Source: a virus. From it: a stretch of DNA of 22,946 bases. Positions 559 to 22,868 of this stretch are shown one piece after another. Positions within the stretch are counted from its first letter, which is position 1. Every line of letters begins with the position of its first letter. The notes under the pieces are model-generated. The model ran no database searches. It was not told where the DNA came from and saw only the letters and a program-made list of their open reading frames with translations. Position numbers and translations under genes: made by a program. The stretch spans positions 1 to 22,946 of the IMG/VR virus record IMGVR_UViG_3300020139_000004. One strand, written 5' to 3'.

Positions 559-894
559 TTATATATTATTCATTACCTTTTTAATTTCTTTTTTAAACAC
601 ATAATGCATAAAGTCAGCTCGGATATGCTCAGGAGCTCCCCATTCCTCCGTCAATTTGAAAACTTTTTGAAGAATTTCATGAAGTTCCTCAAGAGTCGCA
701 TTTTTAATAGTCTTTCCAAAATCTTCGAGTAGTAGTTTCCGAAACAATCGCCGAGTTTCCTTTTCCAACAAGAACAATTTTTTTATTTTTGCATCCTTTT
801 CTTCTTGAGAAAGGTCGGGATTTTCTCTGATTTTTTTGATTTCCTCGTCTCGCCAATCTAAAAACAATTCTCCTTTTTGAGGTAATTTAAACAT
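559..894 (-). CDS. Hypothetical charged helical protein (111 aa)
   Basis: I do not recognise this family. The ATG at 894-892 follows an excellent AAAGGAGGT ribosome binding site (about 901-909), and the stop lies 11 bases before the next gene, so it is clearly a translated member of the terminase/ring nuclease unit. The protein is about half Lys, Glu, Leu, Ile and Arg and should be almost entirely alpha-helical, with possible coiled-coil stretches at residues 15-60 and 65-85. No cysteine pairs, signal peptide, membrane segment or catalytic motif is visible. Small acidic/basic helical proteins downstream of a counter-defence gene can be regulators or accessory inhibitors, but nothing in the sequence shows that here. 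Confidence 0.75.
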   Translation of the reverse strand: MFKLPQKGELFLDWRDEEIKKIRENPDLSQEEKDAKIKKLFLLEKETRRLFRKLLLEDFGKTIKNATLEELHEILQKVFKLTEEWGAPEHIRADFMHYVFKKEIKKVMNNI

Positions 895-909: not shown

Positions 910-1203
910 TTATATTTCAATTTTCAAGATTTCTCCTACTCTCTGCTCTATGGAATGAGAAGCTATAACTACCGGTCCCAACCGAGGGTCGTATATTGCA
1001 ATCCAAGCGGTCGGATGGAAAAAGTGGACAAGAAAGCCATAAAGCCATATTGGAGCTCTTCCTGTAAGAATTACCCCCTTGCGGGAGTTGACAGCCGGAA
1101 CCTCTAATCTTTTCAATTCGTCGGGGGTTATTACCCCTTCCGGTGGCAGAATAATCTCTACCACCGTTGCCAACAAACCTTCTTTCGCTCTCAATTCTAC
1201 CAT
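910..1203 (-). CDS. csx3: Csx3/Crn3-family ring nuclease (candidate viral anti-type III CRISPR protein)
   Basis: The 97-residue protein matches the Csx3 (Crn3) family over its whole length, the usual size of stand-alone members. The diagnostic stretch is VPAVNSRKGVILTGRAPIWL (35-54), then H60, H63, AIYDPRLG (69-76) and ASH (81-83). From my memory of Archaeoglobus fulgidus Csx3, the invariant GRxPIWL, the YDPRLG loop (Asp and Arg near its catalytic centre) and the later His all have counterparts here (D72, R74, H83). Csx3 is a metal-dependent enzyme that linearises cyclic tetra-adenylate, the second messenger by which type III CRISPR activates Csm6/Csx1-type nucleases. No cas gene or array is nearby; the neighbours are the large terminase and small phage genes. 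It therefore looks like a viral counter-defence enzyme, not part of a CRISPR locus. A good AAAGGAG site (1211-1217) and a promoter of its own precede it. Confidence 0.9.
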   Translation of the reverse strand: MVELRAKEGLLATVVEIILPPEGVITPDELKRLEVPAVNSRKGVILTGRAPIWLYGFLVHFFHPTAWIAIYDPRLGPVVIASHSIEQRVGEILKIEI

Positions 1204-1226
1204 TTTTACACTCCTTTTCGTTTTCT

Positions 1227-1247: not shown

Positions 1248-2606
1248 TCATAGTTTCTTTATGGGCGTTAAATATCTTTTTTCTGAACTAACTGCGACTG
1301 GACGTTTTATTCTTGTAGTTATTGTAGGAATATCGGTGGGGAAATATATTGAAACTGCATATCCTAGAGCATCAACCACATGGTCATAATATCCGTCCTT
1401 AAAAGGTTCATCTTTTACTTTCGGAGAAGTAGTTTCTGGGAAATGATACCCTCCTAACATTGCATCAATCAATACTTCACAACGAGGATGTATTTGTAAA
1501 ACGGGTCTTCCTGCTCTTAATGTGGTTAATAGTTTTTTAATCATATAAACTCTTTCCAGAACGGGGGTTCGACGATAAAAAGGAGTTATTCCGAAATCTC
1601 TTAAAATTTCTAATGAAGTTTTACCCTTATCGGTGTATTGTGAACCTGAGGGGTCGCAGGTATCCTCAAATTCAGCAAAAGGAAATTTTTTAACAGAATG
1701 CTTTATTACTTTATCTGCAAAATCCGTTAAATATATATCTAATCCCACCAATTCATCTAAAACATTTAAGTTACCGTCATGGTCTATCTGAAGCCACAAT
1801 ACAACGGGACGATGAAATCCAAAATCCCACGACCTGATTACTGATAATCCAGGAATATATTTTAAATTTTCATTAACATGTAATTTTCTGTTAAATTCGG
1901 TAAATACAGGTTTTCCATATATATCTGACCCCCACTCTCCCTCTAAATATCTTCTTCTATATTCAACTGGCATTTCTTCTAATTTTTTGAAATATGAAGG
2001 TGGCAAATTATCTTTGTTTTCAACAGTTGAAGCTTTATAACAAATTCTATCTTCACTCTTTTGTTCCACAAACAACTGATATAAATATGATTTTTTTGGT
2101 GGTGAAGCAGAAGTTAAAAAGAAATAATGTTTCGGCATTCCTTTCAATCTTAATCTTTTTGAAAGAAAATGATAAGTGTATTCATCACGCAAAGCCTCAT
2201 GTGCCTCATCAATGTAAATATAATGCAGTTCAAGTGATTGAAATTTGACGGGGTCATCCAGTGCTCTAAATAAAACTACTGAAGGAGTATTTCCAATAGA
2301 TTGAATAACTGCTAATTTCCGTGTATAATGATAATTCTTTAGAATTTTTAAACCCTCAATCTCATTGAAAAATGTTTGCATAGTGCTATCCTCAAGTTCT
2401 CTCATTGTGAATCTGCTTATCATTCCGACTGACCCGGGATTTAAAAAAGATAACAAAATTGCTTTTCGACATCCCGCAGTAGTTTTCCCGCATCCCCACC
2501 CCCCAATAAAAAGTTGTTCGGGATGTTCAAAATCAAATACAAATTTTTCCTGCGTCGGTGTCCAGGTCCGCCACAATTTTTTCAGTTTTTCTTTATCAAA
2601 ATTCAT
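1248..2606 (-). CDS. terL: Terminase large subunit (DNA-packaging ATPase and nuclease)
   Basis: This 452-residue protein has the full two-domain layout of phage large terminases. The ATPase half shows Walker A GGWGCGKT (35-42), Walker B YIYIDE (129-134) and the coupling motif LTSASPP (164-170), then RRYLEGEWG (218-226), typical of the domain link. The RNase H-like nuclease half shows SWDFG with D261, DTCDPSG with D318, and DHVVD with D408 and D412, the usual metal-binding acidic residues. It cuts concatemeric DNA and drives it into the prohead. Its ATG overlaps the stop of the upstream gene by 4 bases, so translation is probably coupled. No small terminase is recognisable; the unknown gene just upstream sits where one might be expected. 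A csx3 gene follows immediately. Confidence 0.95.
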   Translation of the reverse strand: MNFDKEKLKKLWRTWTPTQEKFVFDFEHPEQLFIGGWGCGKTTAGCRKAILLSFLNPGSVGMISRFTMRELEDSTMQTFFNEIEGLKILKNYHYTRKLAVIQSIGNTPSVVLFRALDDPVKFQSLELHYIYIDEAHEALRDEYTYHFLSKRLRLKGMPKHYFFLTSASPPKKSYLYQLFVEQKSEDRICYKASTVENKDNLPPSYFKKLEEMPVEYRRRYLEGEWGSDIYGKPVFTEFNRKLHVNENLKYIPGLSVIRSWDFGFHRPVVLWLQIDHDGNLNVLDELVGLDIYLTDFADKVIKHSVKKFPFAEFEDTCDPSGSQYTDKGKTSLEILRDFGITPFYRRTPVLERVYMIKKLLTTLRAGRPVLQIHPRCEVLIDAMLGGYHFPETTSPKVKDEPFKDGYYDHVVDALGYAVSIYFPTDIPTITTRIKRPVAVSSEKRYLTPIKKL

Positions 2607-3588: not shown

Positions 3589-4077
3589 ATGGACAAAATC
3601 CCCCCAAAAGATATTTTTAAGGTGTTCAACGGCTTGCCCCCTGAACACAAACTGGAATTCATAATCACGATGAGTCAGGAATTACCCCCAGAAATCATAG
3701 ATGAATTTGAATACGAAAATTTGAATATTTTCGAACCAGAGAAACTCCCAGAGCCACCTCCCTGCTATTCCGAACACAAAAAACTCCTGAAAACCATAAA
3801 ACAAAAAAAGAATCGTGTCTCTTTTCAACAAGTTGTATGCCCAACATGTCTAAAATTCATTAAACAATACGAAGAAACTTTATATGAAAACTACGGTAAA
3901 TTACAGCACCTCATAAAATTATACAAAAATTTTGGATCCCGTGAAGAATACATAAAACAAAAAACCATACTTGAAATGATAAAAAAATACCCGCCTGTAA
4001 CCTGGTTTAGGAGCAGACTTTTCGGTATAATACAAAAAAGCGAAGAATTTGAAAATGATATAATAGGGGGTGACTGA
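3589..4077 (+). CDS. Hypothetical protein with a Cys pair, first gene of the replication unit (162 aa)
   Basis: The frame is open from 3409, but the start at 3589 is chosen because AGGAGG (3577-3582) sits at ideal spacing and the promoter lies just upstream; an earlier start would run through both promoters. I do not recognise the family. The N-terminus (MDKIPPKDIFKVFNGLPPEH) and residues to about 60 are acidic and Pro-rich. Residues about 65-120 contain a lone CxxC (VCPTCLKF) and a preceding Cys, too few to predict a complete zinc site in one chain, followed by a helical, Lys-rich C-terminus. The stop overlaps the ATG of the replication-initiator-like gene by one base, suggesting a partner or regulator in replication. 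Confidence 0.8.
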   Translation: MDKIPPKDIFKVFNGLPPEHKLEFIITMSQELPPEIIDEFEYENLNIFEPEKLPEPPPCYSEHKKLLKTIKQKKNRVSFQQVVCPTCLKFIKQYEETLYENYGKLQHLIKLYKNFGSREEYIKQKTILEMIKKYPPVTWFRSRLFGIIQKSEEFENDIIGGD

Positions 4078-5120
4078 TGACCGATAAAATAACAAAAAAG
4101 AAAAAAACAATAACTATACCCGAAGACCTCATGCGATTTCTCGTATCAACCAACTTCCTCAATGAACGAGGTCGCATACTCTTAAGCATCATAACCCTCA
4201 TCAACTTCCTCAAAGATGTAAGCCCCTCCGCCATAAAAAAACTCACTGGAATGCCCCGTCAAAATGTTCACCGAAATTTAGAATTATTAAAAAAATTGTT
4301 CGGAAACAATCTTATGCTACTACTACAGACCTACGACAGAGAAAAATACCTGTATCACGACATAACTCACAAATATTATAAAAATGTAATCAAAATTGAT
4401 GACGCAAAAATCTCAAAAAATAGTGGGGTTAGAAAAAATGTAATCAAAATTGATGACGCAAAAATCTCAAACTGGACGCAAGATTTTGAGGAAATCCCAG
4501 AATGTAATCAAAATTGCTTACAAAACAGCATATCCGAGAGCAAAGATGTAATCAATTTTGATTACGCAAAACCCTCGATTTCACCCCTTCCCCCTCTCCC
4601 TAAAAATTTAAAGAAAGAAAAAAGAAAAGAAAAAAGAAGCAAAAAAGAAAAGAAAAAAGAAAGAAATTGTATTATAGACTCAAGTATTATATTAAATATA
4701 CTTAATCCCTGTATTAAAGATAATAATACTGTATTTCATAAACCTTCTCCCCCTTCCCCTAATATAAATAATATAGGGCAAAATTTTTTAAAAATTGACG
4801 AAAGTGTAATCAAAATTGATGACAAAATGGAAGAAAAGAAAGACCAAGAGGACCAAGGTGTCCCACCCTATCAGCCACTCATCAGTACTCAGCAGAATAT
4901 CCCAACCCCCTCTCCCACATCCCATCAACCATCAAAAGAAAAAACCACTCCACCCTCACTCAAAGACTACGCCACCCAGATCATCCAGGAAACCATCTCC
5001 AGAGAAGAAGCTCTTAACCAGCTTCAGCAAATCTATCCGCACCTGCCTAAACAAATCCTCAACCAACTCCTTGACCAATACATAAAACTCCTAACCCCAA
5101 AAACCCCTAATAATAAATAA
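4077..5120 (+). CDS. Putative replication initiator with embedded iterons (347 aa)
   Basis: The N-terminal ~90 residues form a likely winged helix: an IPEDLMRFLVSTNFLNERGR start, then SPSAIKKLTGMPRQNVHRNL (50-69) as a helix-turn-helix. This is the layout of phage O-like and DnaD-like initiators, which bind origin repeats and recruit the helicase loader. The middle (about 105-290) is low-complexity: NVIKIDDAKIS repeats, a Lys/Glu run encoded by a purine tract, then Pro/Ser/Gln-rich linker. Residues 295-340 form a compact helical C-terminal domain that could contact a loader. The repeats in the gene are conserved as DNA (one copy is in a different reading frame), which supports an origin lying inside its own initiator gene as in lambda. 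Its ATG overlaps the previous stop. A transcriptional regulator is the main alternative. Confidence 0.65.
   Translation: MTDKITKKKKTITIPEDLMRFLVSTNFLNERGRILLSIITLINFLKDVSPSAIKKLTGMPRQNVHRNLELLKKLFGNNLMLLLQTYDREKYLYHDITHKYYKNVIKIDDAKISKNSGVRKNVIKIDDAKISNWTQDFEEIPECNQNCLQNSISESKDVINFDYAKPSISPLPPLPKNLKKEKRKEKRSKKEKKKERNCIIDSSIILNILNPCIKDNNTVFHKPSPPSPNINNIGQNFLKIDESVIKIDDKMEEKKDQEDQGVPPYQPLISTQQNIPTPSPTSHQPSKEKTTPPSLKDYATQIIQETISREEALNQLQQIYPHLPKQILNQLLDQYIKLLTPKTPNNK
4380..4822 (+). repeat. Five iteron-like repeats inside the initiator gene (candidate replication origin)
   Basis: Copies of GTAATCAAAATTGATGAC begin after a T at 4385, 4439, 4503, 4547 and 4805. Copies 1 and 2 are identical over 38 bases (4380-4417 and 4434-4471). 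Copy 4 is almost a perfect palindrome, GTAATCAA..TTGATTAC. Copy 3 (GTAATCAAAATTGCTTAC) is read in another frame (CNQNCLQN instead of NVIKIDDA), so the DNA is conserved and not just the peptide. Spacings are 54, 64, 44 and 258 bases. Clustered dyad-like repeats in an initiator gene, next to purine-rich and AT-rich DNA, match the organisation of lambdoid origins. Confidence 0.65.
4610..4743 (+). other. Purine tract and AT-rich stretch, candidate DNA-unwinding element
   Basis: From 4610 to 4676 the plus strand is all A and G except for one C (4640). It is preceded by a pyrimidine-rich stretch (about 4573-4601) and followed to 4743 by very AT-rich sequence. It lies between iteron copies 4 and 5. 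Strand-asymmetric, easily melted DNA beside iterons is what a helicase-loading site looks like in lambdoid origins. It also encodes the Lys/Glu-rich linker of the protein. Confidence 0.5.
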
Positions 5121-6300: not shown

Positions 6301-6780
6301 ATGACTGAAGAAAAAAAGGTGATGGAAAAAGAAATAAAAAAGGAATTCCTCGTCCTCCGACTGAGGAGGACTGAGGAAGGCTTGAAGGTATATCTCCGGT
6401 CCGAAAAACTAGAAACTTTTTGGCAAAAAGCTGCAAAGGGGGTTGTCAGAGAATACAACCCCCCATACATCATAAAGGGGAGGGAAGAGGATAGAATAGA
6501 GGGCTATCCCTTCCCGGAGACTCTTCCCGGTAAAATAGAAAAAACATTTTTTAACAAAATCGAGAAGGGTCTCTTTTATGACGGAGAGCCCAATTTTTCC
6601 TTCTCCCGCCTACGAGGGGTAGGAGAAGGAATAACAATTCTTTTTCCAGAGCCTTATTCAAAAACAGCAATAAAAAGATGGGTAGAAGAGCTCAAAAAAT
6701 CAATACAGATATTTGTGCATGAATATCTCAAACCAATAGAGATTGAAATCGTAATCAATGAAAAAGGAGAGGAAGCATGA
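6301..6780 (+). CDS. Hypothetical protein, probable partner of the amidoligase (159 aa)
   Basis: ATG at 6301 follows AAAGGAGGTG, and the stop overlaps the amidoligase ATG (ATGA), so the two are translationally coupled. I do not recognise the family. The first 25 residues are charged. Residues about 16-35 (FLVLRLRRTEEGLKVYLRSE) look like paired beta strands, residues 53-80 are aromatic and Pro-rich, and residues 120-145 form an amphipathic helix ending in EYLKPIEIEIVI. No cysteines or membrane segments are present. Its obligate-looking linkage to the amidoligase suggests a substrate carrier, adaptor or substrate-recognition subunit, which is inference from position only. Confidence 0.8.
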   Translation: MTEEKKVMEKEIKKEFLVLRLRRTEEGLKVYLRSEKLETFWQKAAKGVVREYNPPYIIKGREEDRIEGYPFPETLPGKIEKTFFNKIEKGLFYDGEPNFSFSRLRGVGEGITILFPEPYSKTAIKRWVEELKKSIQIFVHEYLKPIEIEIVINEKGEEA

Positions 6781-7469
6781 AATATAAATATATAGATAAG
6801 ATAGGAATAGAATTAGAAGGGGGCTGGCGGGAAATTCCTCCCGCTGGCAAACCCTATTACGATGGGAGCATTGAGGGAATAGATGCTCCCATCATCGGTG
6901 AAATTGCCTCCCCTCCAATTCCAGCAGAAAAAATATCAGAATTGGAAAAGTGGCTGAGACAGAATTACCCCCACAGGGTAAATAATACCTGTGGGTTTCA
7001 CATTCATATTTCCCTCAGAAACCTCCTTTTCTATTCGCAGCTCCTCACTCCCGAATTTCATCAATTCCTTCTGCAGGAACTTCACAAGTGGGGTGAAGAA
7101 AACGAAATTCCTTCCTCACACTATTTCTGGAAAAGGCTGAATGGAGCGAGATATACCCGAAAGGAATGGCGAGCAGAAGAACAGATATTCGCAACTGAAA
7201 AAACAACAAGTCGGTATTGCCAGCTCAATTTCTGTTTTCGCCTTCATAAAACGGTAGAATGTAGAATTTTTCCGCAATTTGAAAAGAAAAAATGGGCGAT
7301 ACTTGCTCTAAAGAAATATATATGGATTGTAGAAGAGTGGCTCCGGAATTGTCCTCCGGAGCAGTCGGAAGAAGTGATTATTGAAGGGGAAGCGGAAAAT
7401 GAAATTGAAAATGAAATTTTTGAAATTGAAAATAATAAAGAAGAAATAAAAGAAGAAATTGAAATATAA
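6777..7469 (+). CDS. Amidoligase (glutamine-synthetase-like ATP-dependent COOH-NH2 ligase)
   Basis: This 230-residue protein carries the motifs of the putative amidoligase family (Pfam Amidoligase_2, by motif recognition): GIELEG (10-15), DGS (29-31), GEIASP (41-46), CGFHIHIS (72-79, the His-x-His signature), SRYCQLNF (145-152) and VECRIF (160-165). These acidic, His and Arg residues correspond to the ATP/metal and substrate sites of glutamine-synthetase-like ligases, which activate a carboxyl with ATP and join it to an amine or ammonia. A class II glutamine amidotransferase follows 12 bases downstream, the known partner of this family, and could supply ammonia. The C-terminal ~35 residues are an acidic EIEN-type tail. 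The substrate is unknown: peptidoglycan side chains, a small peptide and a viral protein are all possible. There is no signal peptide, so the enzyme is cytoplasmic. Confidence 0.88.
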   Translation: MKYKYIDKIGIELEGGWREIPPAGKPYYDGSIEGIDAPIIGEIASPPIPAEKISELEKWLRQNYPHRVNNTCGFHIHISLRNLLFYSQLLTPEFHQFLLQELHKWGEENEIPSSHYFWKRLNGARYTRKEWRAEEQIFATEKTTSRYCQLNFCFRLHKTVECRIFPQFEKKKWAILALKKYIWIVEEWLRNCPPEQSEEVIIEGEAENEIENEIFEIENNKEEIKEEIEI

Positions 7470-7481
7470 GGAGGTGAAACA

Positions 7482-8069
7482 ATGTGTGTAATTGCAGTAT
7501 GTGAAAAGAAAATCCCTCCTCTGGATGACTTGCTTTTGATGGAGAAAGCAAATCCAGACGGAGGGGGTCTGGCGTGGAGAGAGAAAGGGAAAGTTCTTTT
7601 TGAAAAAGGACTTACCGCACAGGAAATCCATCAAAAAATAAAGAGACTTCCTCTCCCGGTTGTCATTCATTTTAGGCTTGGGACTTCTGGCGGAAAATGT
7701 CCTGAACTCTGCCATCCCTTCCCTATTCAAGAGGATGTTCCTCTCATTCTCAAGGGTGAAGCCAAGGCAGTCCTTTTTCACAATGGAATTTGGAGGGACT
7801 GGAAAGAATTGTGCCTCAAAACAGTAATATATCACAAAAAGAAGTTTCCAGGTGGTAAGATGTCGGATACTCGGGCAATGGCTTGGTTTTGTAGCGTTCA
7901 TGGTGAAAGCGTATTAACACTCATCGATGAAAAAGTAGTTGTTTTCACTCCCTCTCAGATAACTTTATATGGTAATGGCTGGACGGAGAAAAACGGGATA
8001 ATATACTCAAATCTCTACTGGGAAAATACATTTGATGTGAGGAATATAACTCCAAAATGGTGGAAATAG
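7482..8069 (+). CDS. Class II glutamine amidotransferase-like (Ntn-hydrolase) protein
   Basis: The 195-residue protein starts MCVIAV, so removal of Met exposes Cys as the N-terminal nucleophile, the hallmark of class II glutamine amidotransferases. Supporting motifs are NPDGGG (24-29), HFRLGTSGG (63-71, Arg for the glutamine carboxylate), HPF (78-80), FHNG (99-102, oxyanion-hole Asn and Gly) and SDTRAMAW (128-135). The enzyme would hydrolyse glutamine and release ammonia. It is short and has no synthetase domain, so it should work with a separate ligase; the amidoligase directly upstream is the obvious partner. AAGGAGGTG precedes the ATG at a good distance. An Ntn-type peptidase role remains possible because the fold is shared. 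Confidence 0.88.
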   Translation: MCVIAVCEKKIPPLDDLLLMEKANPDGGGLAWREKGKVLFEKGLTAQEIHQKIKRLPLPVVIHFRLGTSGGKCPELCHPFPIQEDVPLILKGEAKAVLFHNGIWRDWKELCLKTVIYHKKKFPGGKMSDTRAMAWFCSVHGESVLTLIDEKVVVFTPSQITLYGNGWTEKNGIIYSNLYWENTFDVRNITPKWWK

Positions 8070-9329: not shown

Positions 9330-9587
9330 TTAATCCTGGTTATATATTAATCTTTCAACAAGGTTTCTAATTTCATAGAGAAGCCTTTTCAATTCCTCAT
9401 GTCTTATTTGAGCTTTTTCCTCGTGTATATTGAGATATTCTTTCATTTCATGGGTATGGGTAGGATTATGTGGATTTTTATTGTTTTTGTTTTTCACAAG
9501 ATTAAAGAGTTCTTTGAGTAATAGAAGAATAACTCCCACCAGGATAGAGGAATTCATAAAAACAAGGATTGATGAATTCATATCCAT
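9330..9587 (-). CDS. Small membrane protein with coiled-coil tail, holin candidate (85 aa)
   Basis: AAAGGAG lies 5 bases before the ATG at 9587-9585, which is therefore preferred to the in-frame GTG at 9593 that overlaps this site. The N-terminus has one strong membrane segment (SSILVGVILLLLKELFNLV, about residues 13-31), preceded by a near-duplicate MNSSILV. A polar hinge rich in Asn, His and Pro follows (about 33-47), then a charged helix with coiled-coil character (about 48-83). It overlaps the end of the ATP-grasp gene and is the last gene before a hairpin at the end of the virion unit. This position, size and one-TM plan fit a holin or spanin-like lysis protein, but no endolysin is in view, so the assignment is tentative. 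Confidence 0.65.
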   Translation of the reverse strand: MDMNSSILVFMNSSILVGVILLLLKELFNLVKNKNNKNPHNPTHTHEMKEYLNIHEEKAQIRHEELKRLLYEIRNLVERLIYNQD

Positions 9588-10897
9588 TGCCACTCCTTTA
9601 ATGTATTATAGCGGTTGATAGCGGATTGTCCAGCATCAATCCTGTATTGAAGGTTGACGACTTTGATTAACTTTGTATAAGCCATAACCTTTGAGATTGC
9701 CTCTTCAATTGTATCTCCTATCTCTACAAGTTCTCCCAGAATACCATCATATCCTGCCATTTCAATTTCTCCTTTTTTTGTTTTTCTAACATCTAATAAA
9801 TACAAGTTATTCTTTAACAATTGTTCAGGGTAAATCACAGGCAATCCCTCAACAACATTCTTGAGATTATTTTTTTCATCAAGTTGCATAACATGTCCAG
9901 GGTAGGGGAAGGTCGTTAGTCTTAAAGCAAAACTAAATTTGTCATAATAAACTGGCAATTCCTGGAGATTTCCAGAAAGTAATCTGAAAAATACATTCAA
10001 CAGGCTTTCATTTTTCAGAAGATGTTTCCACGCAAAAATAGCATTGTAGCCAAAACGGGGGGTAATTTCTAAAAAATATGCTTTTCGGTCTGTTTTTGAA
10101 ACAATACAATTGAAATCCACAGGTCCCGTATAATCAAAATTTCTCATAACAGGAATAAAATGCTGGAAGATTTGTCTATAAGGACGACAAGTAAAAGTAT
10201 CTTTCCAGTTAAATACGACTGATGACATACATCCTGTATTACATCCGAGGTCTCCAGCAAGAAATTTTTTGTCTTCAAATGTAGAATTGAGAGGCGGGAC
10301 AAATCTTCCATGACTAAACCACGCTTCAGTTGAAATTTCAACACCTTCAATGAATTGTTGTACTATGAAAGGATATGTGAGAATACCTTCAGAAGTTTTT
10401 TCTCTAGCAACCTCATAGGCTTCTTCTCCCGTCTCACAAATGATTGTGTTTTCAGTCATCCTTGAAGCCTCTTCCTTTATCACACATTTTTGATTTTTGA
10501 AGTGTTCTATAATAAGAGAAAGAGCCTGTGGAGAATGAATATAAATTGTTTTCGGAACAGGAATTGATAATTTTCGCACAAGTTCAATTGTTTGAAATCT
10601 TTTGATTTCAAATTTTGACATATTTTCTGCACATCCTAACACAAGATAACCCTGTTTTTGTAGTTCACCTGCGAGTTTGTCCTGAAGAGCAGTTTCAAAA
10701 ACAAATATAGTTTCATTCTTTTTGAATTTTGAGAGTGGCGGTAATATCGGGTATATAGGAACGATATTTTGGTATACTTTCTGTTTCCAGCATGCTTTGT
10801 TTTTGTAGTATATTACCATTACTTCCTGTCCTTCGTCTTGAAACTCTTTAGCAATAGGTAAAAGGTCTCCTACATCACTGATAAAAACCCATTTCAT
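9578..10897 (-). CDS. PurD-like ATP-grasp ligase in the virion operon
   Basis: The 439-residue protein has the ATP-grasp layout of the glycinamide ribonucleotide synthetase/carbamoyl-phosphate synthetase group. It has a Rossmann-like N-terminal domain (MKWVFISDVGDLLPIAKEF), a KFEIKRFQTIELVRKLSIP segment (95-113), the ATP-binding lysine in CVIKEE (138-143), QQFIEGVEIS (180-189), YTGPVDFN (256-263) and FLEITPRFGYNA (275-286) with metal-binding Glu and Asn. A PurD-like C-terminal domain follows (GYDGILGELVEIGDTIEEA, then YRIDAG). Such enzymes couple ATP to carboxylate-amine ligation. The usual PurD N-terminal glycine-rich signature is absent, so purine synthesis is unlikely and the substrate is unknown. 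It overlaps the giant virion protein stop (TAATG) and the holin-like gene, so it is made late, with structural proteins. It may modify virion or host-wall components. Confidence 0.85.
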   Translation of the reverse strand: MKWVFISDVGDLLPIAKEFQDEGQEVMVIYYKNKACWKQKVYQNIVPIYPILPPLSKFKKNETIFVFETALQDKLAGELQKQGYLVLGCAENMSKFEIKRFQTIELVRKLSIPVPKTIYIHSPQALSLIIEHFKNQKCVIKEEASRMTENTIICETGEEAYEVAREKTSEGILTYPFIVQQFIEGVEISTEAWFSHGRFVPPLNSTFEDKKFLAGDLGCNTGCMSSVVFNWKDTFTCRPYRQIFQHFIPVMRNFDYTGPVDFNCIVSKTDRKAYFLEITPRFGYNAIFAWKHLLKNESLLNVFFRLLSGNLQELPVYYDKFSFALRLTTFPYPGHVMQLDEKNNLKNVVEGLPVIYPEQLLKNNLYLLDVRKTKKGEIEMAGYDGILGELVEIGDTIEEAISKVMAYTKLIKVVNLQYRIDAGQSAINRYNTLKEWQWI

Positions 10898-13800
10898 TAT
10901 TGTTTCCTCTCCATTTCTTTTTCTCTTTCAAATTCCTGTTCAATTAAACTCTTAATGTAGTCCCATTGCAACATGTAAGCGGGGGGTTTATAAACTCGGG
11001 GTATTCTTTTGATAAAATTAAATGCTTCAGGATAGTTCATTGCTTTTAAGCCATTCTTTGTGCCTCTTACTACACCTTGTAAGAGCAAGATTTTTTCAGC
11101 ATCTGTAATATCTTTTCTTTCACTTATTTTCAATAAAGTATCTAACAGTCTGTTTCCTATTTCAACTGGAGTTTCACCCCTCAAAACATAATTCACAGTT
11201 TCACTAACTTCAATTCTACCTGAAGCAATTTTTTGATAGGTTGCAAATTGTTTTTCTCTTTCAATTGCTTCTCGATATGTTCTACCAAATGCAAATCGGC
11301 GAAGTGCGTCAATAAAAGGATTTTCACTGATAAAAGTATATCCCTTTTTCTTTGTTTGTCTATCTATATTTGCGAAATGTATTTGATTTTTCAAAATAGC
11401 AAGTGCATCATACAAGTTATGAGGAGCCACGCCCATCCGGGTTATAACCTCTTCCAGGATATTTTTGATTATTTCAGTAGCGGGGACTTGATGAATAGTT
11501 TTGAATTTCTGTGCGGTTATGCGGGTTGCTTCGGCAACCTGTCGTAAAGTTGCATAAGGCATTCCACCGACCATTGCAATAATATTGTCCATTGCCTTGG
11601 CAATATCGGGTTGATTTGTGATTGTTTCAAGCGTGTATTGAAAATCAAATGCTGGTTTAATAGAATTGGAAATGTCAATATCAAAAATTTCTGCGGGTAA
11701 TCCTCCACCCAGGATAGGATATTTTCTGAGTGCATCAAGAAATTCTACTTCTCGTAAAGGATTATCATCACCTGTATATTTTTTGTATTGTGAATAAACC
11801 AAATACCCAAATAAAGTAGCAAGTGGTATTCCTCTTACTCCACCACTCAATCCAAGAATAGAGGCATGTCTCAAATATGCTTTTGCACCCTCTTTTTTGT
11901 AAGTTTGATATAGCAACTCCAATTCCTTCATAAACCAAAATCTAAACATATATAACCATTTCGTAAATTCTGACCTCACACCCATGGGTAAATCGGAAGG
12001 AGAATAATAAAATTGTGTTTTTCCAATCATATCAACAACATATTTTCTGATTTCAAGAGGATTTGTCATACCCAGTTTTTCTTTTGCGTGTAAATAAAAA
12101 GCAATTGATGAAACAGTTCTATTGACGGGTTCAGGAGCGGAGAATAAATAAAGTGCTGTCCCTGTTAATTTTTCACCCCATCCTTTGATAGGAATATATC
12201 CCTTTTCATTCCAGCCCCAACTTGCAATTAATTCTGCAATATCCTTCGGAACACTTTCAGGATTTATAAGATAATCTGTGAAATACTTATAACTTCTTAT
12301 AATTGTATTTCTGCCTACTATCGGATAAGTATTAAGCCATACCTGTAAAGCATTAACAAAAGCACCTTTTACATTAAAGCCCAAACCCATTAAAGCATTT
12401 ATTGTTCTGGCAAAACGAGGGATTTTTGAAAGTGTTCTATATTGAGCCCACCAGCCATGCGTATAAGGTTCTACAATTTCCCAGCCCATGAGCCTATCAA
12501 TCCATTGCAAGGCAACTTGGTCTGCAAATTTCTTACCGATAAGAGGAATTTTTGAAACTGAATTATAAAAAGGCACTGCTTCATTCTTATACCAGTTATT
12601 CAAAAATACATTTTTCAAATCATTATAAAGTAATTTCCTCATGTTTCTAATGGCATTCCATTCCATCAATTCAGGAGTTTTCTCTACTATTCCCGTTCTT
12701 CTGGCAAATGAAGAAATAAATTTTCTTCTATTTTCCATAATCCACAAAAGAGGAGTTCCCAATTGACGGGCAAATTGAGCGTGGAGATTTCGTATATCTT
12801 CTTTTGTCAATATTTCAGATAATTGTTCACTATAATTTTTTAATATGTTTGTAAGTTTTCCAACAACTGCATGTAATTGTCTTCTACTAACTCGTCTTTT
12901 CAAAAATGAAAGATTGATTGTAGAAGGTTGAATAATAACTTGTTCTATATCTGCAAGTTGTTCAGGAGTAAGATTTTTTATGAAAGCGTAGGCTTGTTCA
13001 GGACTATCAACCCGTATTTTTACCTCTGTTCCATCTGTTTTTTTGTATGTTATGTCTGTTTTGTAAAAATTAACGAGGTCATAGGCAAGAGTATGATGAT
13101 AATAATTTGGAATAATTCTTTCTTCAGGAAGAGCCCCTAGTTTAGCAAGCATGCCTGTAAAACTTCTGTATGTTTTGAAAAGTCCTAATGCCTCATCCCT
13201 GTATGTTTGAGGAATTCTGGCATACTCGGGTGAAGCAATGAATTGTTCAGGAGTGGCATAAGTATTTAAGGCTTTTCCTACAATCTCTTGATATTTTGCA
13301 GGTAATTTCATTTCAATTTCTTTCAAAATACTTTCATAATTTTCAACTATTTTGTTATATGTGAGATTTGTAATGTGAAATGAAGTATATGCATCTTTCC
13401 ATTCCAGCCCTGCCTGCCTCAAATATGCACTTAAAGTTGGATTTTTCACTTTATTATTAATTAAACTTTCAATTCGTGCTTGAATAGATTTTAAATATGT
13501 ATTTTTGACTGTCGGAGTAAATTTTAGTTCTGCTTCAGCAACTTCAACTAAATCAATATGTTCAACAGGGATTGAATTTGAAATTTCAATTGCCTCATTA
13601 TACCACCTTGACCCTTTTGAAAATAGATTTTTTAGATTTTTTGAAATAACAGAAAGAGAAGGTAATTTGAAAAGCCCCAGTTCAATATCAATTTCACCTT
13701 CTTCAAGTGGGATTTGAGAAAGTCTCTTTATTATACCTTCATTCTTCTCAGTTAATTCAATTATATTTTTTTCAGGGAAAGTATCTAACAGGTTAAAATA

Positions 13801-15978
13801 ACTTTCATGTAAGTCTTTTATAAACTCATTTTTAAATTTTGAAAAATCAAGATTTTTTACTTTTGTTGCCTCTTCAATTCTTTTATAAAAAGGTTTTAAA
13901 ATGTTGTTTCTTGTATTATTAACATAATCCTGAATAGTAAAAGCAGTTAAACGGCGTCCTTTTCCTTCATATACATATTCTCGCATTGCAACAGGCAATT
14001 TATATGCTTTATCAAGTATGGCTTTAATCTGAGAAAGTGAAGTACTTGAAACAATAGAATTTGTGAGGTTTACAAATTCTTTGATTGCCAAATCTTTGTA
14101 GGTTTCTTTTGCAGTTCGTAGTTCACCTGTTTTCGGGGGTCTACCTCTTGCAATGCGTTCTATTTCTTCAAGTGCCAATAATTTCTTTTCTTTTGCGGTA
14201 GTAATATATCTTGAAACATCTTGTTCCCATTTCTTAAATATCTCTGTAAGAGTTGTAATTTCTTGAGGAGTTAATACATCCCACCCCGTTTTTGCTGTGA
14301 AATCAATAAAATCTTCAATAGTAAGTTCCTTTTCAATCACTCGTCCTGGTTCAGGGGATATTCTAAAAAGAAAAGTAGGTTTTTCAGGTCTTCTACTTTT
14401 TGCTGTAGAAATTGATAATTTTCCTTCTGAAATATCAAATACAATAATATCATTAAATTGTGTTTTTTTGCTAAAATCATTTAAAGCCTCAATGATTTGA
14501 GTTTTGTTATTTTTGATAAAACTATCTATATCAACTGGAACTTTTGTTGTTGGTGGTGGGGGTAATTCTGGGCGTTCAATCGGTTCTTCCCATAATGCTT
14601 TAACCTCTTCTTTAGGGATGTTTATATTTTCGGCTAATTTTTCAAAAACTTTTTCCTGAGTAATTATTTGAGAAGGCTCAATTGTTTTTGAAACTGGATT
14701 TTGAGTATCTTCAATTTCTTTAATAGGTTGTGGAGTTTTTGTAATTTCTCGTTCTTTTGATAATAATTTTGTTTCTTCTATTGCTTCCTGGATTATTTTT
14801 GTTATAGGAGTTTGAGGTAATTCTTTTGCAACTGCTTCAGGAGTTAATACAGGAGGTGGAATTTCGGAAGGTGTCGGCACTTCAGCAGGTGGTTTTTCAG
14901 GAACAGGTGGAGGTGCTGGTGCTTTTTTTGGTTTTTTAGTAGTTTGTTGAGAAATAGATTTAAACAGGTTTTGTGCTTCAAGTATAGAATTTATTGTGTT
15001 TTCTATATTTGAAATCTTGACGTCGTAACTTGTTGTAAGCATTTTTAAACGAGGTAATCCCGTAAGTCCCCCTATTGCTGTTGCAATACCACCCCATTTT
15101 AATGCCTCTTCTATATCCCCTGTTGCAGTGCCCACTGCTACTGCTGTGGGTATTGCTTCTCTTCCCACAACTTGCCCCATATATGCTCCTGTCGGTAAAA
15201 GTGTGCGTCCCACTTTCGCTGTTGCGGGAATTCTTGTTAATGCTCTTCCGGGAAGTGCTCCAATTTGTGCTCCTAATCTTCCCAATCCTAAAACTTCTCC
15301 TAACGCTCTAATTGGAGTTTCCACCGCTCTAAAACCCGTTGCAGTTCCCATCAATCCATATAGGGTTTGTGCAAGAGGATGTGCGGTTGCTAATGCTACT
15401 GATGGTAGGGTTTCACGACTAACAAATTTTTGAATAGGACGCTCTAATCTTTCAGGCAGTGCTCTTGCAAGTAAAGAGGCAATCCCCCCAAAAACTCCAC
15501 CTAATCCCGCATATATTCCTGCTCCCGCTATATGTTCACGATATTTTTGTTCTTCTTTTTTTCCCTCAGGAGTTCCTCTTTTTTTCTCTAAATATGTATT
15601 CCAGGTTTTCTGATGAAAATCTTCAATTTTCATAAGTTGTGTTTCAAAAGTGGGATATGAAGTGAAGAATTCTCTAAATTTATCAAAATAAAACTGATAC
15701 CGAGTGGGAATATCCATCTTTTGTGCTTGTTCATATTCTTGTCGTGTCAAAAAAACAGGTAGATTTTTAACTTCAAATTCTTTTCTTTTTCCTTGTTCAA
15801 ATTCCTGTAATTGATTATAAAATTCTACTAAGGCTCTTGCTGAAGAATTGATTTTTTCTAAAAATCCACCACTTCTCGCATACTTTCCACCAAATTTTTT
15901 TTCAATATGTGAATAGGTTAATTCAGGGTCATCTACATAAATTGTGAAAGTTGATTTTGAAAATATATCATTGTTCAT
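10897..15978 (-). CDS. Giant virion protein, probable internal/ejection protein (1693 aa)
   Basis: This is the largest gene in the window. Order of regions: a helical N-terminus (1-145), a Gly/Ala-rich hydrophobic region with several membrane-like segments (about 150-316), a Pro-rich linker (about 345-400, 465-480), a long helical body, a hydrophobic segment near 1193-1222 (MGLGFNVKGAFVNALQVWL), and a block near 1315-1400. That last block has FYYSPSDLPMGVRSEFTKWL and FRFWFMKELE followed by a Gly-rich hydrophobic helix. The SPxxxPxxxRSxxxxxxxxFRFW pattern recalls the domain found near the C-terminus of very large podoviral internal or polyvalent virion proteins that enter the host with the DNA. 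No transglycosylase or RNA polymerase motif was recognised. It starts 5 bases after the previous stop without a strong ribosome site, so it is probably translationally coupled. Confidence 0.75.
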   Translation of the reverse strand: MNNDIFSKSTFTIYVDDPELTYSHIEKKFGGKYARSGGFLEKINSSARALVEFYNQLQEFEQGKRKEFEVKNLPVFLTRQEYEQAQKMDIPTRYQFYFDKFREFFTSYPTFETQLMKIEDFHQKTWNTYLEKKRGTPEGKKEEQKYREHIAGAGIYAGLGGVFGGIASLLARALPERLERPIQKFVSRETLPSVALATAHPLAQTLYGLMGTATGFRAVETPIRALGEVLGLGRLGAQIGALPGRALTRIPATAKVGRTLLPTGAYMGQVVGREAIPTAVAVGTATGDIEEALKWGGIATAIGGLTGLPRLKMLTTSYDVKISNIENTINSILEAQNLFKSISQQTTKKPKKAPAPPPVPEKPPAEVPTPSEIPPPVLTPEAVAKELPQTPITKIIQEAIEETKLLSKEREITKTPQPIKEIEDTQNPVSKTIEPSQIITQEKVFEKLAENINIPKEEVKALWEEPIERPELPPPPTTKVPVDIDSFIKNNKTQIIEALNDFSKKTQFNDIIVFDISEGKLSISTAKSRRPEKPTFLFRISPEPGRVIEKELTIEDFIDFTAKTGWDVLTPQEITTLTEIFKKWEQDVSRYITTAKEKKLLALEEIERIARGRPPKTGELRTAKETYKDLAIKEFVNLTNSIVSSTSLSQIKAILDKAYKLPVAMREYVYEGKGRRLTAFTIQDYVNNTRNNILKPFYKRIEEATKVKNLDFSKFKNEFIKDLHESYFNLLDTFPEKNIIELTEKNEGIIKRLSQIPLEEGEIDIELGLFKLPSLSVISKNLKNLFSKGSRWYNEAIEISNSIPVEHIDLVEVAEAELKFTPTVKNTYLKSIQARIESLINNKVKNPTLSAYLRQAGLEWKDAYTSFHITNLTYNKIVENYESILKEIEMKLPAKYQEIVGKALNTYATPEQFIASPEYARIPQTYRDEALGLFKTYRSFTGMLAKLGALPEERIIPNYYHHTLAYDLVNFYKTDITYKKTDGTEVKIRVDSPEQAYAFIKNLTPEQLADIEQVIIQPSTINLSFLKRRVSRRQLHAVVGKLTNILKNYSEQLSEILTKEDIRNLHAQFARQLGTPLLWIMENRRKFISSFARRTGIVEKTPELMEWNAIRNMRKLLYNDLKNVFLNNWYKNEAVPFYNSVSKIPLIGKKFADQVALQWIDRLMGWEIVEPYTHGWWAQYRTLSKIPRFARTINALMGLGFNVKGAFVNALQVWLNTYPIVGRNTIIRSYKYFTDYLINPESVPKDIAELIASWGWNEKGYIPIKGWGEKLTGTALYLFSAPEPVNRTVSSIAFYLHAKEKLGMTNPLEIRKYVVDMIGKTQFYYSPSDLPMGVRSEFTKWLYMFRFWFMKELELLYQTYKKEGAKAYLRHASILGLSGGVRGIPLATLFGYLVYSQYKKYTGDDNPLREVEFLDALRKYPILGGGLPAEIFDIDISNSIKPAFDFQYTLETITNQPDIAKAMDNIIAMVGGMPYATLRQVAEATRITAQKFKTIHQVPATEIIKNILEEVITRMGVAPHNLYDALAILKNQIHFANIDRQTKKKGYTFISENPFIDALRRFAFGRTYREAIEREKQFATYQKIASGRIEVSETVNYVLRGETPVEIGNRLLDTLLKISERKDITDAEKILLLQGVVRGTKNGLKAMNYPEAFNFIKRIPRVYKPPAYMLQWDYIKSLIEQEFEREKEMERKQ

Positions 15979-17529: not shown

Positions 17530-18018
17530 TTATTTAATCCTCCATAACAAAAATTGTCTATTTGATACATTAACACTCACTCCACTGTTATTTTGACATA
17601 AAACTTTTATATTGTCAAGGGTTTTGAAGTTAATAATTGAAAAAATTGTATATTGTTGATAAGTAAGTGGTGGTGCAAAAGATAAACTCGCAAATTCTAT
17701 GCTTCCATTTGAATTTACAACTTTTAATATAATATTCCCTGTTGGTGAACCTGATGCCTGAACAAAACAAGAAGCAATAAAAATCATAGTTCCTGGCTCT
17801 AGTTTTTTGTTTATTCTTTCTATATCACTAATATTTAAAGTTGAACCATTTGTAACCACAAGTGTAGAAGTTATTATTTCTCTAAAAACGTCTACTTCTC
17901 GTAAATCTTCTCTGTTTTTAATATTCAAAAAATTATTGTTTATCTTAATAACACAATCTTTTGCCCAGGCAAGTAAATCTTCTATTTTGAGAAGTTCTTT
18001 TAATAAACTTATATTCAT
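17530..18018 (-). CDS. Beta-rich virion-associated protein (162 aa)
   Basis: Its ATG overlaps the stop of the tail-nozzle gene (ATGA) and its own stop abuts the next ATG, so it is coupled to virion genes on both sides. Residues 1-45 are helical (LLKELLKIEDLLAWAKDCVI). The remainder alternates Ser/Thr/Asn with hydrophobic residues in the manner of a jelly roll (GTMIFIASCFVQASGSPTGN, IILKVVNSNGSIEFASLSF), ending RQFLLWRIK. This plan, a helical anchor plus beta-sandwich, suits a tail-tip, fibre or decoration protein. No family is recognised. Confidence 0.7.
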   Translation of the reverse strand: MNISLLKELLKIEDLLAWAKDCVIKINNNFLNIKNREDLREVDVFREIITSTLVVTNGSTLNISDIERINKKLEPGTMIFIASCFVQASGSPTGNIILKVVNSNGSIEFASLSFAPPLTYQQYTIFSIINFKTLDNIKVLCQNNSGVSVNVSNRQFLLWRIK

Positions 18019-20042
18019 CCAGTTGCTCCTATTTCTTTAGTCCCTGCTTTTATTGAGGTATCTAGATAAATTATATTTATTCCCGTCAATGAAAAATAAT
18101 CCGTTGTTCTTATTAAAATTTGGAAAAACCTTGCTTTGATTGAAACATCCAGATAAGGATAAATAGTTATATCAGGAACTTCATATTCTTCACTTTCCAG
18201 CATCCCATCAGGCGTATCTCCATATCGGATTTTAACATATAATTTTTGCTGAATTTTTTCATCAGTTAAAAATTGAATGCGGTTTAGTCTCTTAACCACA
18301 TAGGGATTACCAAAGTCTAAAATGGGGGTGGCATAATATCCTTCATAATCTAGATTTAAACCACCTAAAACCGAAGTGAAATGTGCAACATAATTATAAC
18401 TTTCTTCACCATCATGTTCTTTTATTCCAAACCAAATTTCTCTAACTCTATCCTGAAGATACGCTTCTTGCCATCTAAACCCTGCTTTATCCCATGAAAT
18501 TCTTACCGTGTCCCATGTATACATGTTGACTAAATCTTCAACCTCTACAAAACCTCTGAATTCTATATTGGGAATTTCATATTTCGTCCATTGCCCTGTT
18601 AAAATATGATACCCCAATCCAATTCCATACAAATTGTCTTGAGGCACCGCAAAAGGAAGCCAGATAAAATATTGTTTTTTAATTTCTATATAAGAAGCGA
18701 AAACCTTTGAATAATCTATATTTCTTTTTATTGCTGAAAAGTATGTGGCAATAGGTTCAGAAATTTTTTGTATTCTATTTCCCGAATAGGTATATATTCC
18801 ATCATCACCGAGAAAAAACAATGTATCTTTATAGTTTACAATTGAATGTGGGGCTTTACAACCAATATCATCCGAAATTTTTTGAATTGTCATAATGATT
18901 GGTAAACCAACATATTTCCCTACATATATTGCTTTTTCTTTAAAGATTAATAAATCATCACCCATTACTTTTATTGCTGTTATTTCTCCTTTCTCATCTT
19001 GAATATCTACAAAATAGGCATCGTTTGCAGGTGAAGGAGTATAAGTATTGGCATCAAAATTTTTTGACAATCTTATCCGTGTGGGGTAATACACTCCTTG
19101 TTCAATAGTTTTTGCATGAACGCAATGCCATTTCCATACTTCTATTAAATATGCCTTAATATACTCATCAGCTAAATCTGTTGTAAGGTCTAATATTCGG
19201 GTATCTTGAATATTATGATGTCTATATTTACACCATTTGTTATCTATATCAAAAATGAAATATAATTCCCCATTACTCCACATGTTCTGTGAAGTTATCA
19301 TTTTTGCAAAATTATTGCTTAATTTTTTAAAAATAGAATAAGGAACTTGTGATACATTAGAACTTACAGCCGAAGTAAGTGTGATTTGAGTATCACTATC
19401 AATTGATTGAATGTAATAAGTTTCGGATATTCCTGAAATTTCAATTGCATCTCCTGGTTGTGCTTCACTCTTCGTCCAGGCTGTATTATGCCCTATTATA
19501 ATATTTGACCCTGCATAAGCAGTAACTGTTCCTCTTTGCCATACAATATTTAATTTTTGCCATTTTTTTGTTGCCCCATCATATTCATAACAAGAAGTAG
19601 TTGTTAACATCAAATATCTTTTTGACCCATCCCTTACAAACCATTTTCCTAAATAATAAATGTCTTCAGGAATAACTTGTATATACCAGAAAGGAATATT
19701 TGAATAATCTTGAGAGAAAGGGGTTGATATAGTTAATGCTGTATCAGAAGAAATACTTATAATTTTTCGTTTTTCAGAACCTATTACAATGAACCAGCCA
19801 ACCTCAAGTTCTGTTGTAAATTGTGTGTCTGTTCCTGTTATCTCTGTTCCATTAGTTGTAATTGTGCCAGTTCCTGCATTTAAAATAGGTTCAATACCAA
19901 GAGCATATTTTATTGAAGTATCGGTAAAATCTATATTTTTTAGATTTATTGAACTTTCGGGGGGTAATAAATAAGCAGGAAATTCAGTATATAAACCTTT
20001 GAAAGGTGCTTTTATGAATATGCTTTTTACTTCATATCCCAT
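18015..20042 (-). CDS. Tail nozzle / tail tubular protein B-like beta-propeller (675 aa)
   Basis: The 675-residue protein resembles podoviral tail nozzle proteins (T7 gp12, P22 gp10 group) by overall pattern. It begins FKGLYTEFPAYLLPPESSIN, typical of these proteins, and carries propeller-blade segments such as EITAIKVMGDDLLIFKEKAI, ISDDIGCKAPHSIVNYKDTL and FFLGDDGIYTYSGNRIQKIS (about residues 355-430). Two related insert domains occur: residues about 58-121 and 170-237 both read GTxT..G..I.G..T.W/F, then GD/GW..I, then ..I.SI.SDT.ITLT/AL..., an internal duplication. The C-terminus is a beta domain. The protein should form the distal part of the short tail through which DNA leaves. It has an AGGAG site and sits in the order expected between adaptor, appendages and internal proteins. 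Confidence 0.8.
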   Translation of the reverse strand: MGYEVKSIFIKAPFKGLYTEFPAYLLPPESSINLKNIDFTDTSIKYALGIEPILNAGTGTITTNGTEITGTDTQFTTELEVGWFIVIGSEKRKIISISSDTALTISTPFSQDYSNIPFWYIQVIPEDIYYLGKWFVRDGSKRYLMLTTTSCYEYDGATKKWQKLNIVWQRGTVTAYAGSNIIIGHNTAWTKSEAQPGDAIEISGISETYYIQSIDSDTQITLTSAVSSNVSQVPYSIFKKLSNNFAKMITSQNMWSNGELYFIFDIDNKWCKYRHHNIQDTRILDLTTDLADEYIKAYLIEVWKWHCVHAKTIEQGVYYPTRIRLSKNFDANTYTPSPANDAYFVDIQDEKGEITAIKVMGDDLLIFKEKAIYVGKYVGLPIIMTIQKISDDIGCKAPHSIVNYKDTLFFLGDDGIYTYSGNRIQKISEPIATYFSAIKRNIDYSKVFASYIEIKKQYFIWLPFAVPQDNLYGIGLGYHILTGQWTKYEIPNIEFRGFVEVEDLVNMYTWDTVRISWDKAGFRWQEAYLQDRVREIWFGIKEHDGEESYNYVAHFTSVLGGLNLDYEGYYATPILDFGNPYVVKRLNRIQFLTDEKIQQKLYVKIRYGDTPDGMLESEEYEVPDITIYPYLDVSIKARFFQILIRTTDYFSLTGINIIYLDTSIKAGTKEIGATG

Positions 20043-22220: not shown

Positions 22221-22868
22221 TTATCCTCGCCATTTTATAGGCAATTTTTTTGCTCCCAGTGAATATTTCATGAATGATTTAGGAGGGAATTTGCGTGCCT
22301 GGTCTTGACTAATCATTTTTCTAACTGCTTCTTCATAGTTCATTCTCCAAATGGTCACATCGCCCTCTTGAAGCCACATAAACCCATAATAAACTGCTCC
22401 ATTTATCAGGACATCTGGAAAGTTATTTGTAATATAATTTGTGTCTTCATCATTAATTAAATCAGGCAAATAAACATAATATTCCATAATTGCGTTATAA
22501 TCTTTTTCAGGAGTGGGATATATAACATAATTTCCATCGGCAAGTCTAAAATACATAGGTTCGGCTTTCGGAGTGGCAGGTGGAAACAATTCAAGTGCTT
22601 CAGTCAAAGTAATTTGTTGTAAAGGTTTATATGCGGTAGGTAATTCCAGCCAAATTTTCAAATCATCTTTGAACAAAGCGGGTAAATCATAAGTATTTAT
22701 ATTTTCATAAAAAGTTGTATTTTCTTGAGTTTTTAAGAAGGAAAAATTTGATAATCGGCAAACTTCTTTTTGAACTCTGTTAATCCAGGTGGGTATCAAA
22801 TCAAGTAGTTCTTGCTGTCGGTATACAAGTATTTTTTCAACTTCGTTTTTTATTTCTTTAAAGTTCAT
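22221..22868 (-). CDS. Head-tail adaptor protein (T7 gp11-like)
   Basis: The 215-residue protein matches the podoviral adaptor pattern: a helical N-terminus ending LIPTWINRVQKEVCRLSNFS (24-43), then TTFYENINTYDLPALFKDDL (51-70), LTEALELFPPATPKAEPMYF (87-106) and DGNYVIYPTPEKDYNAIMEY (109-128). A C-terminal helical region with NNFPDVLINGAVYYGFMWLQ follows. The YDLP, PxYF and YPTP steps are what I recognise from adaptor proteins (tail tubular protein A group) that sit between portal and nozzle. Position upstream of appendage and nozzle genes agrees. Its ATG overlaps the upstream stop (ATGA). Confidence 0.8.
   Translation of the reverse strand: MNFKEIKNEVEKILVYRQQELLDLIPTWINRVQKEVCRLSNFSFLKTQENTTFYENINTYDLPALFKDDLKIWLELPTAYKPLQQITLTEALELFPPATPKAEPMYFRLADGNYVIYPTPEKDYNAIMEYYVYLPDLINDEDTNYITNNFPDVLINGAVYYGFMWLQEGDVTIWRMNYEEAVRKMISQDQARKFPPKSFMKYSLGAKKLPIKWRG

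Follow-up and report, generated by a model that had tools for sequence, protein, structure and literature searches.

Viral ring nucleases are a known means by which viruses erase the alarms of type III CRISPR systems. The phage families described so far are AcrIII-1, Csx16, Csx20, Crn4b and the SAVED protein AcrIII-2, all of them different from Csx3 (Crn3). A 2025 survey that applied Crn1-3, Csx15, Csx16 and Csx20 profiles to 28,114 phage genomes counted 36 AcrIII-1, 4 Csx20 and 2 Csx16 and did not list Crn3 (PMC12409355); a later study reported homologues of Crn4 in 11 phages (PMC12830947). We found no report of a viral Csx3 in the open-access literature, which is itself incomplete.

The closest characterized protein to the one described here is AfCsx3 from Archaeoglobus fulgidus (AF1864; PDB 3wzi, 6yud), a cellular enzyme whose host has type III CRISPR. 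Two AfCsx3 dimers sandwich cyclic tetra-adenylate (cA4) and, with Mn2+ or Co2+ as the required metal, convert it to A2-P; multiple turnover is cooperative and slow (0.075 per min) (PMC7371418). Its conserved residues are H57, H60, D69, R71 and H80; H60 and D69 are essential and lie on opposite dimer faces, and the R71A and H80A variants showed strongly reduced activity (PMC7371418). The Methanosarcina mazei enzyme (MmCsx3) partly relieved cA4-driven plasmid immunity in E. coli and was slower than AcrIII-1 (PMC7371418). Csx3 genes usually lie beside type III CRISPR genes, although the family does not require it. The gene that we describe does not: it stands in the packaging region of a phage, with no cas genes around it. 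The stretch of 22,946 bases (the window) that contains it is a whole IMG/VR record, classed as linear, and comes from an uncultured community.

The csx3 gene and its product

The csx3 gene and the features around it are listed in Table 1. The product is a real, intact Csx3 and, by family, an ordinary Crn3. The profile search of the 97-residue protein proposed in the preliminary description passed the cut-offs of both PF09620 (Cas_csx3; Pfam, 106.5 bits against 21, E 6.1e-31) and TIGR02579 (Crn3/Csx3; NCBIfam, 114.9 bits against 55.4, E 1.5e-33). The second score is twice its cut-off and the matches are far beyond chance; the PADLOC Csx3 profile also matched (E 9.2e-35). The protein carries GRAPIWL at residues 48-54, YDPRLG at 71-76 and H83, which bears out the earlier claim of a complete Csx3 with these two motifs and a trailing histidine. 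The family was likewise correctly separated from DUF1874/AcrIII-1, as Cas_csx3 was the sole Pfam match of the protein and DUF1874 gave none.

Table 1. Positions of csx3 and of the annotated features around it in the window.
Feature	Position	Strand	Remarks
Phage gene start, left end, running off the contig edge	2..547	-	Next gene downstream of orf111
orf111, 111-aa protein	559..894	-	ORF; downstream of csx3, 15-nt gap
csx3/crn3	910..1203	-	97-aa stand-alone Csx3; intact ORF
Shine-Dalgarno-like GGAG	1211..1214	-	Sequence; 7 nt upstream of csx3 ATG
terL, phage terminase large subunit	1248..2606	-	PF04466 E 2.4e-15; PF03237 E 8e-13
Small phage gene	2603..2941	-	Upstream of terL; 31% identical to the same-place gene of the sister phage (G012)
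Virion structural protein	18015..20042	-	phrog_3287 E 1.2e-32; 73% identical in G012
Head-tail adaptor, SU10 adaptor-like	22221..22868	-	PF24175 E 8.6e-23; 68% identical in G012

The AfCsx3 entries were the only significant PDB relatives by sequence (phmmer E 2.6e-22), with 52% identity across the aligned conserved core. In the alignment H60, H63, D72, R74 and H83 of the window protein correspond to AfCsx3 H57, H60, D69, R71 and H80, respectively. The preliminary description had named H60 among its mutant targets; this is the position of AfCsx3 H57, and the catalytic AfCsx3 H60 is H63 here. All five residues were kept in every viral relative described below except L014, whose Csx3 part is interrupted relative to that of L011, its 98%-identical sister. 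An AlphaFold2 monomer model (51 sequences) had a mean pLDDT of 96.5, and Foldseek showed the same fold as the cA4-bound AfCsx3 (6yud; TM 0.86-0.89, rmsd 1.3-1.5 A) and as all Csx3 chains of 6yud and 3wzi (TM 0.86-0.89, rmsd 1.3-1.7 A, E ~1e-10 to 1e-9). The residues of both dimer faces were kept. PHROGs held no family for the protein (best E 0.34) and a library of predicted viral structures held no similar fold at E 0.001, so the window Csx3 is absent from the large viral-protein reference sets that we used.

Because the same residues stand on both faces, the protein most likely acts like AfCsx3 and MmCsx3. We consider it probable (roughly 0.76) that the gene encodes a phage Crn3 ring nuclease, carried as cargo beside terL, which would destroy cA4 and so blunt type III CRISPR immunity. 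A host type III complex would detect phage RNA and make cA4, and dimers of the phage Csx3 would stack head to tail around it. The cA4 ring would be bound by one face (T47, G48, R49, D72, R74), while H60, H63 and H83 on the opposite face, with Mn2+, would complete the active site and cut cA4 to linear A2-P, leaving the cA4-driven effectors inactive. We infer the catalysis, the metal use, the tetramer, the cA4 substrate, the host type III system and the benefit to the phage; the anti-type-III role as such is inferred on good grounds. The proposed job, viral removal of cA4, is the same as that of AcrIII-1 (DUF1874, Crn2; PMC7371418), but AcrIII-1 has an unrelated fold, is metal-independent and is faster. 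Against this role, the slow, cooperative turnover of AfCsx3 and the lower speed of MmCsx3 would make Csx3 the weaker anti-CRISPR unless it is abundant. Dose would matter because of the cooperativity, and a high level of Csx3 from the terminase operon would be well suited to such an enzyme.

The slow turnover would also fit a cA4 sponge, a protein that binds cA4 but hardly cuts it and sequesters it in head-to-tail filaments. AfCsx3 H60A formed a milky colloid and filaments with cA4 (PMC7371418), and Csx15 has been described as a good sponge and a slow nuclease (PMC13148439). We regard this as unlikely for the window protein, since the catalytic residues, H63 included, are kept both there and in its viral relatives, and a pure sponge need not keep them. 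Action on RNA by deadenylation, or on another cyclic nucleotide, is suggested by the history of the family, since AfCsx3 was at first reported to be a Mn2+-dependent deadenylase and has been crystallised with RNA (PMC7371418; 3wzi). The family was later shown, with the same residues, to be a cA4-specific ring nuclease (PMC7371418), and we hold such an activity to be highly improbable.

Phage neighbourhood, genome closure and a sister phage without csx3

The terminase gene lies directly upstream of csx3 on the same strand, with a gap of 44 nt, and also matched a PHROG terminase (E 1.8e-28). The structural protein at 18015..20042 marks the contig as phage, and virion proteins are present in the rest of the contig beyond the csx3-terL region. 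No cas genes were found in the window by Pfam, PADLOC and Cas10 searches, nor were there Rfam matches or tRNAs in it. The phage context and stand-alone position claimed for csx3 in the preliminary description were supported. Orf111 had no credible family match in profile searches that included Pfam, NCBIfam and PHROGs; a Cas5b match (E 0.0025) was far under the cut-off and was taken as chance. The left-end gene is possibly a recombination or annealing protein. Relatives of it were found in 17 IMG/VR contigs and in two phages, Hydrogenobaculum phage 1 and a spring podovirus, both with a Cas4-like exonuclease gene in the vicinity.

Shine-Dalgarno-like sites precede both csx3 and orf111. A promoter of its own, which had been claimed for csx3, found no support in a sigma-70 scan: it placed no minus-strand site between terL and csx3, the nearest one falling within terL, and the csx3 region contained no more sites than shuffled sequences did. 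Transcription together with terL would be the simpler reading.

The GC content of csx3 was 45%, compared with 33-34% in the neighbouring genes, and its GC3 was 0.42, compared with 0.15-0.30 in the other measured minus-strand genes. The raised GC3 suggests a recent capture. The difference in GC would also fit host csx3 joined to phage DNA in assembly, or a decayed passenger gene. The preliminary description had itself raised a chimera at this gene as one case against its reading, and we tested this by looking at the genome as a whole.

One of the 17 contigs sharing the left-end gene, L172 (IMGVR_UViG_3300020139_000010, 12,342 bases), overlaps the left end of the window by 122 nt (97.5% identity) and its right end by 171 nt (98.8%), and has portal, major head protein, endolysin and Cas4-domain exonuclease genes. 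Together the window and L172 make up a single virus species with a genome of ~35 kb and circularly permuted ends, a closure at the level of the population, as the records are different and not identical. The missing arc of the window virus is thus a separate IMG/VR record (L172:1-12342). The completed genome was collinear with that of a sister phage, G012 (locus L096, IMGVR_UViG_3300009503_000059, 35,916 bases). Since L172 overlaps both ends and supplies the missing arc, an assembly chimera at csx3 is very unlikely. The ORF is intact, its active site is complete and phage genes stand on either side, the left one common to 17 viral contigs, and we give chimera and decayed passenger together almost no weight.

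Identity between the window and G012 was 68% for terL, 73% for an ATP-grasp protein and 41-73% for structural proteins. The ends of G012 split the homologue of a 1693-aa protein of the window, which makes G012 nearly complete as well. The two phages differ in that G012 has no Csx3, and its terL is followed downstream by a RecE-like PD-(D/E)XK exonuclease and then by a homologue of the left-end gene. The continuation of the left-end gene on L172 has a C-terminal part 32% identical to the G012 gene past the exonuclease; BLASTP with the N-terminal part of the left-end protein showed no relation to that gene. Because G012 has the exonuclease at this place, csx3 is variable cargo, and csx3 and orf111 together fill a variable slot between terL and the left-end gene. 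The sister phages with and without csx3 offer a direct comparison.

Several further features of the window were noted. The 1693-aa protein (10897-15978), 42% identical to the giant G012 protein, is possibly an internal or ejected virion protein. The regions 6777-8069 and 9578-10897 contain an Amidoligase_2 gene (E 1.6e-7), then a gene with weak similarity to class II glutamine amidotransferases, and separately the ATP-grasp protein (E 2.7e-12) that is conserved in the sister phage; a phage-borne ligase or peptide-modification set is possible. Within an ORF at 4077-5120 (+) that has a weak winged-helix match, a TGTAATCAAAATTGATGAC-like repeat occurs at 4380-4837 in four to five direct copies, possibly the iterons of an origin with a lambda-O-like replication initiator. 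The gene at 3595-4077 is divergent from terL, whereas its homologue in G012 (30% identical) is co-directional with terL, a change of orientation that reflects a local inversion or module swap.

Csx3 in other viral contigs and its origin

We searched for Csx3 in other phages, as the preliminary description had proposed, with a mixed outcome. INPHARED (50,697 phage records) gave no Csx3 by tblastn, and a single-sequence query of IMG/VR gave no close copies, in searches that may not have covered records very near the window, while an alignment-based search of IMG/VR gave 11 other contigs with Csx3. Csx3 is rare in phage isolates, since neither the survey of 28,114 phages nor our tblastn search gave any, which counts against the ring-nuclease reading of the window gene. 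Several of the viral genes adjoin phage replication, tail or lysis genes. The neighbours included a DnaG-like primase, RecA, ribonucleotide reductase and a sigma factor in L005, a tape-measure protein and VapE in L006, a Dda-like helicase in L008 (a 272-kb contig), an intein-bearing terminase and an endolysin in L009, and an RNA polymerase beta-like protein and an exonuclease in L010 (167 kb). Around csx3 in L007, L012, L011/L014 and L015 there was no clear phage hallmark, and their viral status is that of the IMG/VR classification. In the sister contigs L011 (7431-8312) and L014 (7431-8228), Csx3 is fused C-terminal to a Nudix-like region.

Stand-alone Csx3 also occurs in phage-like elements. 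An 18-kb Pyramidobacter element (NZ_CP133039) has crn3 beside a LexA-like regulator, an integrase, a DNA polymerase and VapE, and shares a region of 77% DNA identity with an IMG/VR provirus (L013). The csx3 pair of these two elements is under purifying selection (dN 0.125, dS 0.665). Both resemble the window in bearing a stand-alone Csx3, but theirs belongs to a different clade and lies beside repressor-type genes in a lysogeny-type region, not in a packaging operon. The window Csx3 is thus not one odd case, as related genes stand in several unrelated phages.

None of the 11 viral csx3 records contained Cas10. Cas10 lay within the flank of 57 of the 80 cellular csx3 loci and of 0 of 13 viral loci (Fisher P 9e-7), in a search whose 30 Cas10 queries came from genomes of the cellular set and so favours the cellular side; 33/40 of the genomes in that set passed the Cas10 profile cut-off. 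In the csx3 tree, which has about 100 columns and leaves most deep forks unresolved, the viral copies were scattered among cellular ones, with a parsimony minimum of 8 changes, only 2 of them forced by strongly supported branches. This argues for several captures of csx3 by phages, their number being unproven. The window copy has a long branch and grouped with Archaeoglobaceae, Thermococcaceae and other archaeal or thermophile sequences (support 87, not starred).

No convincing spacer emerged from DNA searches of 136 Aquificota, 59 Archaeoglobus-class and 5 Calescibacteriota genomes, in which all matches were low-complexity (A/G-rich) or conserved-coding. A bacterial host is suggested by the endolysin, together with a weak kinship to Hydrogenobaculum phage 1. 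The gene might instead have been captured from cells as an off-switch and work in the interest of the host, or of phage and host together, by limiting toxic cA4 signalling or acting against competing phages. Cellular Crn3 does reset type III signalling, and both the tree and the GC3 indicate that csx3 came from the cellular pool. Such a service is quite unlikely for the window phage, which has an endolysin and no integrase on the parts examined; no cas genes lie nearby, and csx3 recurs among phage genes for replication, tails and lysis.

The viral ring nuclease theme and the Crn3 family are both known, and what is new is Crn3 standing in phages. With the reading of the window gene as a phage ring nuclease, we lean, at somewhat better than even odds, to the broader view that Crn3 adds a family, unlisted until now, to the viral ring nucleases, and that tailed phages, one of them of 272 kb, would have acquired it in several independent events for use against type III immunity. 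If this is true, phages would need high-dose expression, for example from packaging, tail or replication operons, because Crn3 works only as a dimer of dimers. The intact Crn3 in several unrelated phages implies that a family seen as an off-switch of cells passes to viruses as well, and the cooperative, metal-dependent mechanism of Crn3 becomes testable as counter-defence. Two further records were cyanobacterial plasmids (L002 and L003, from Allocoleopsis and a conjugative one from Nostoc) with crn3 together with TIGR03985 CRISPR-associated genes, and one of the two carries two crn3 genes side by side.
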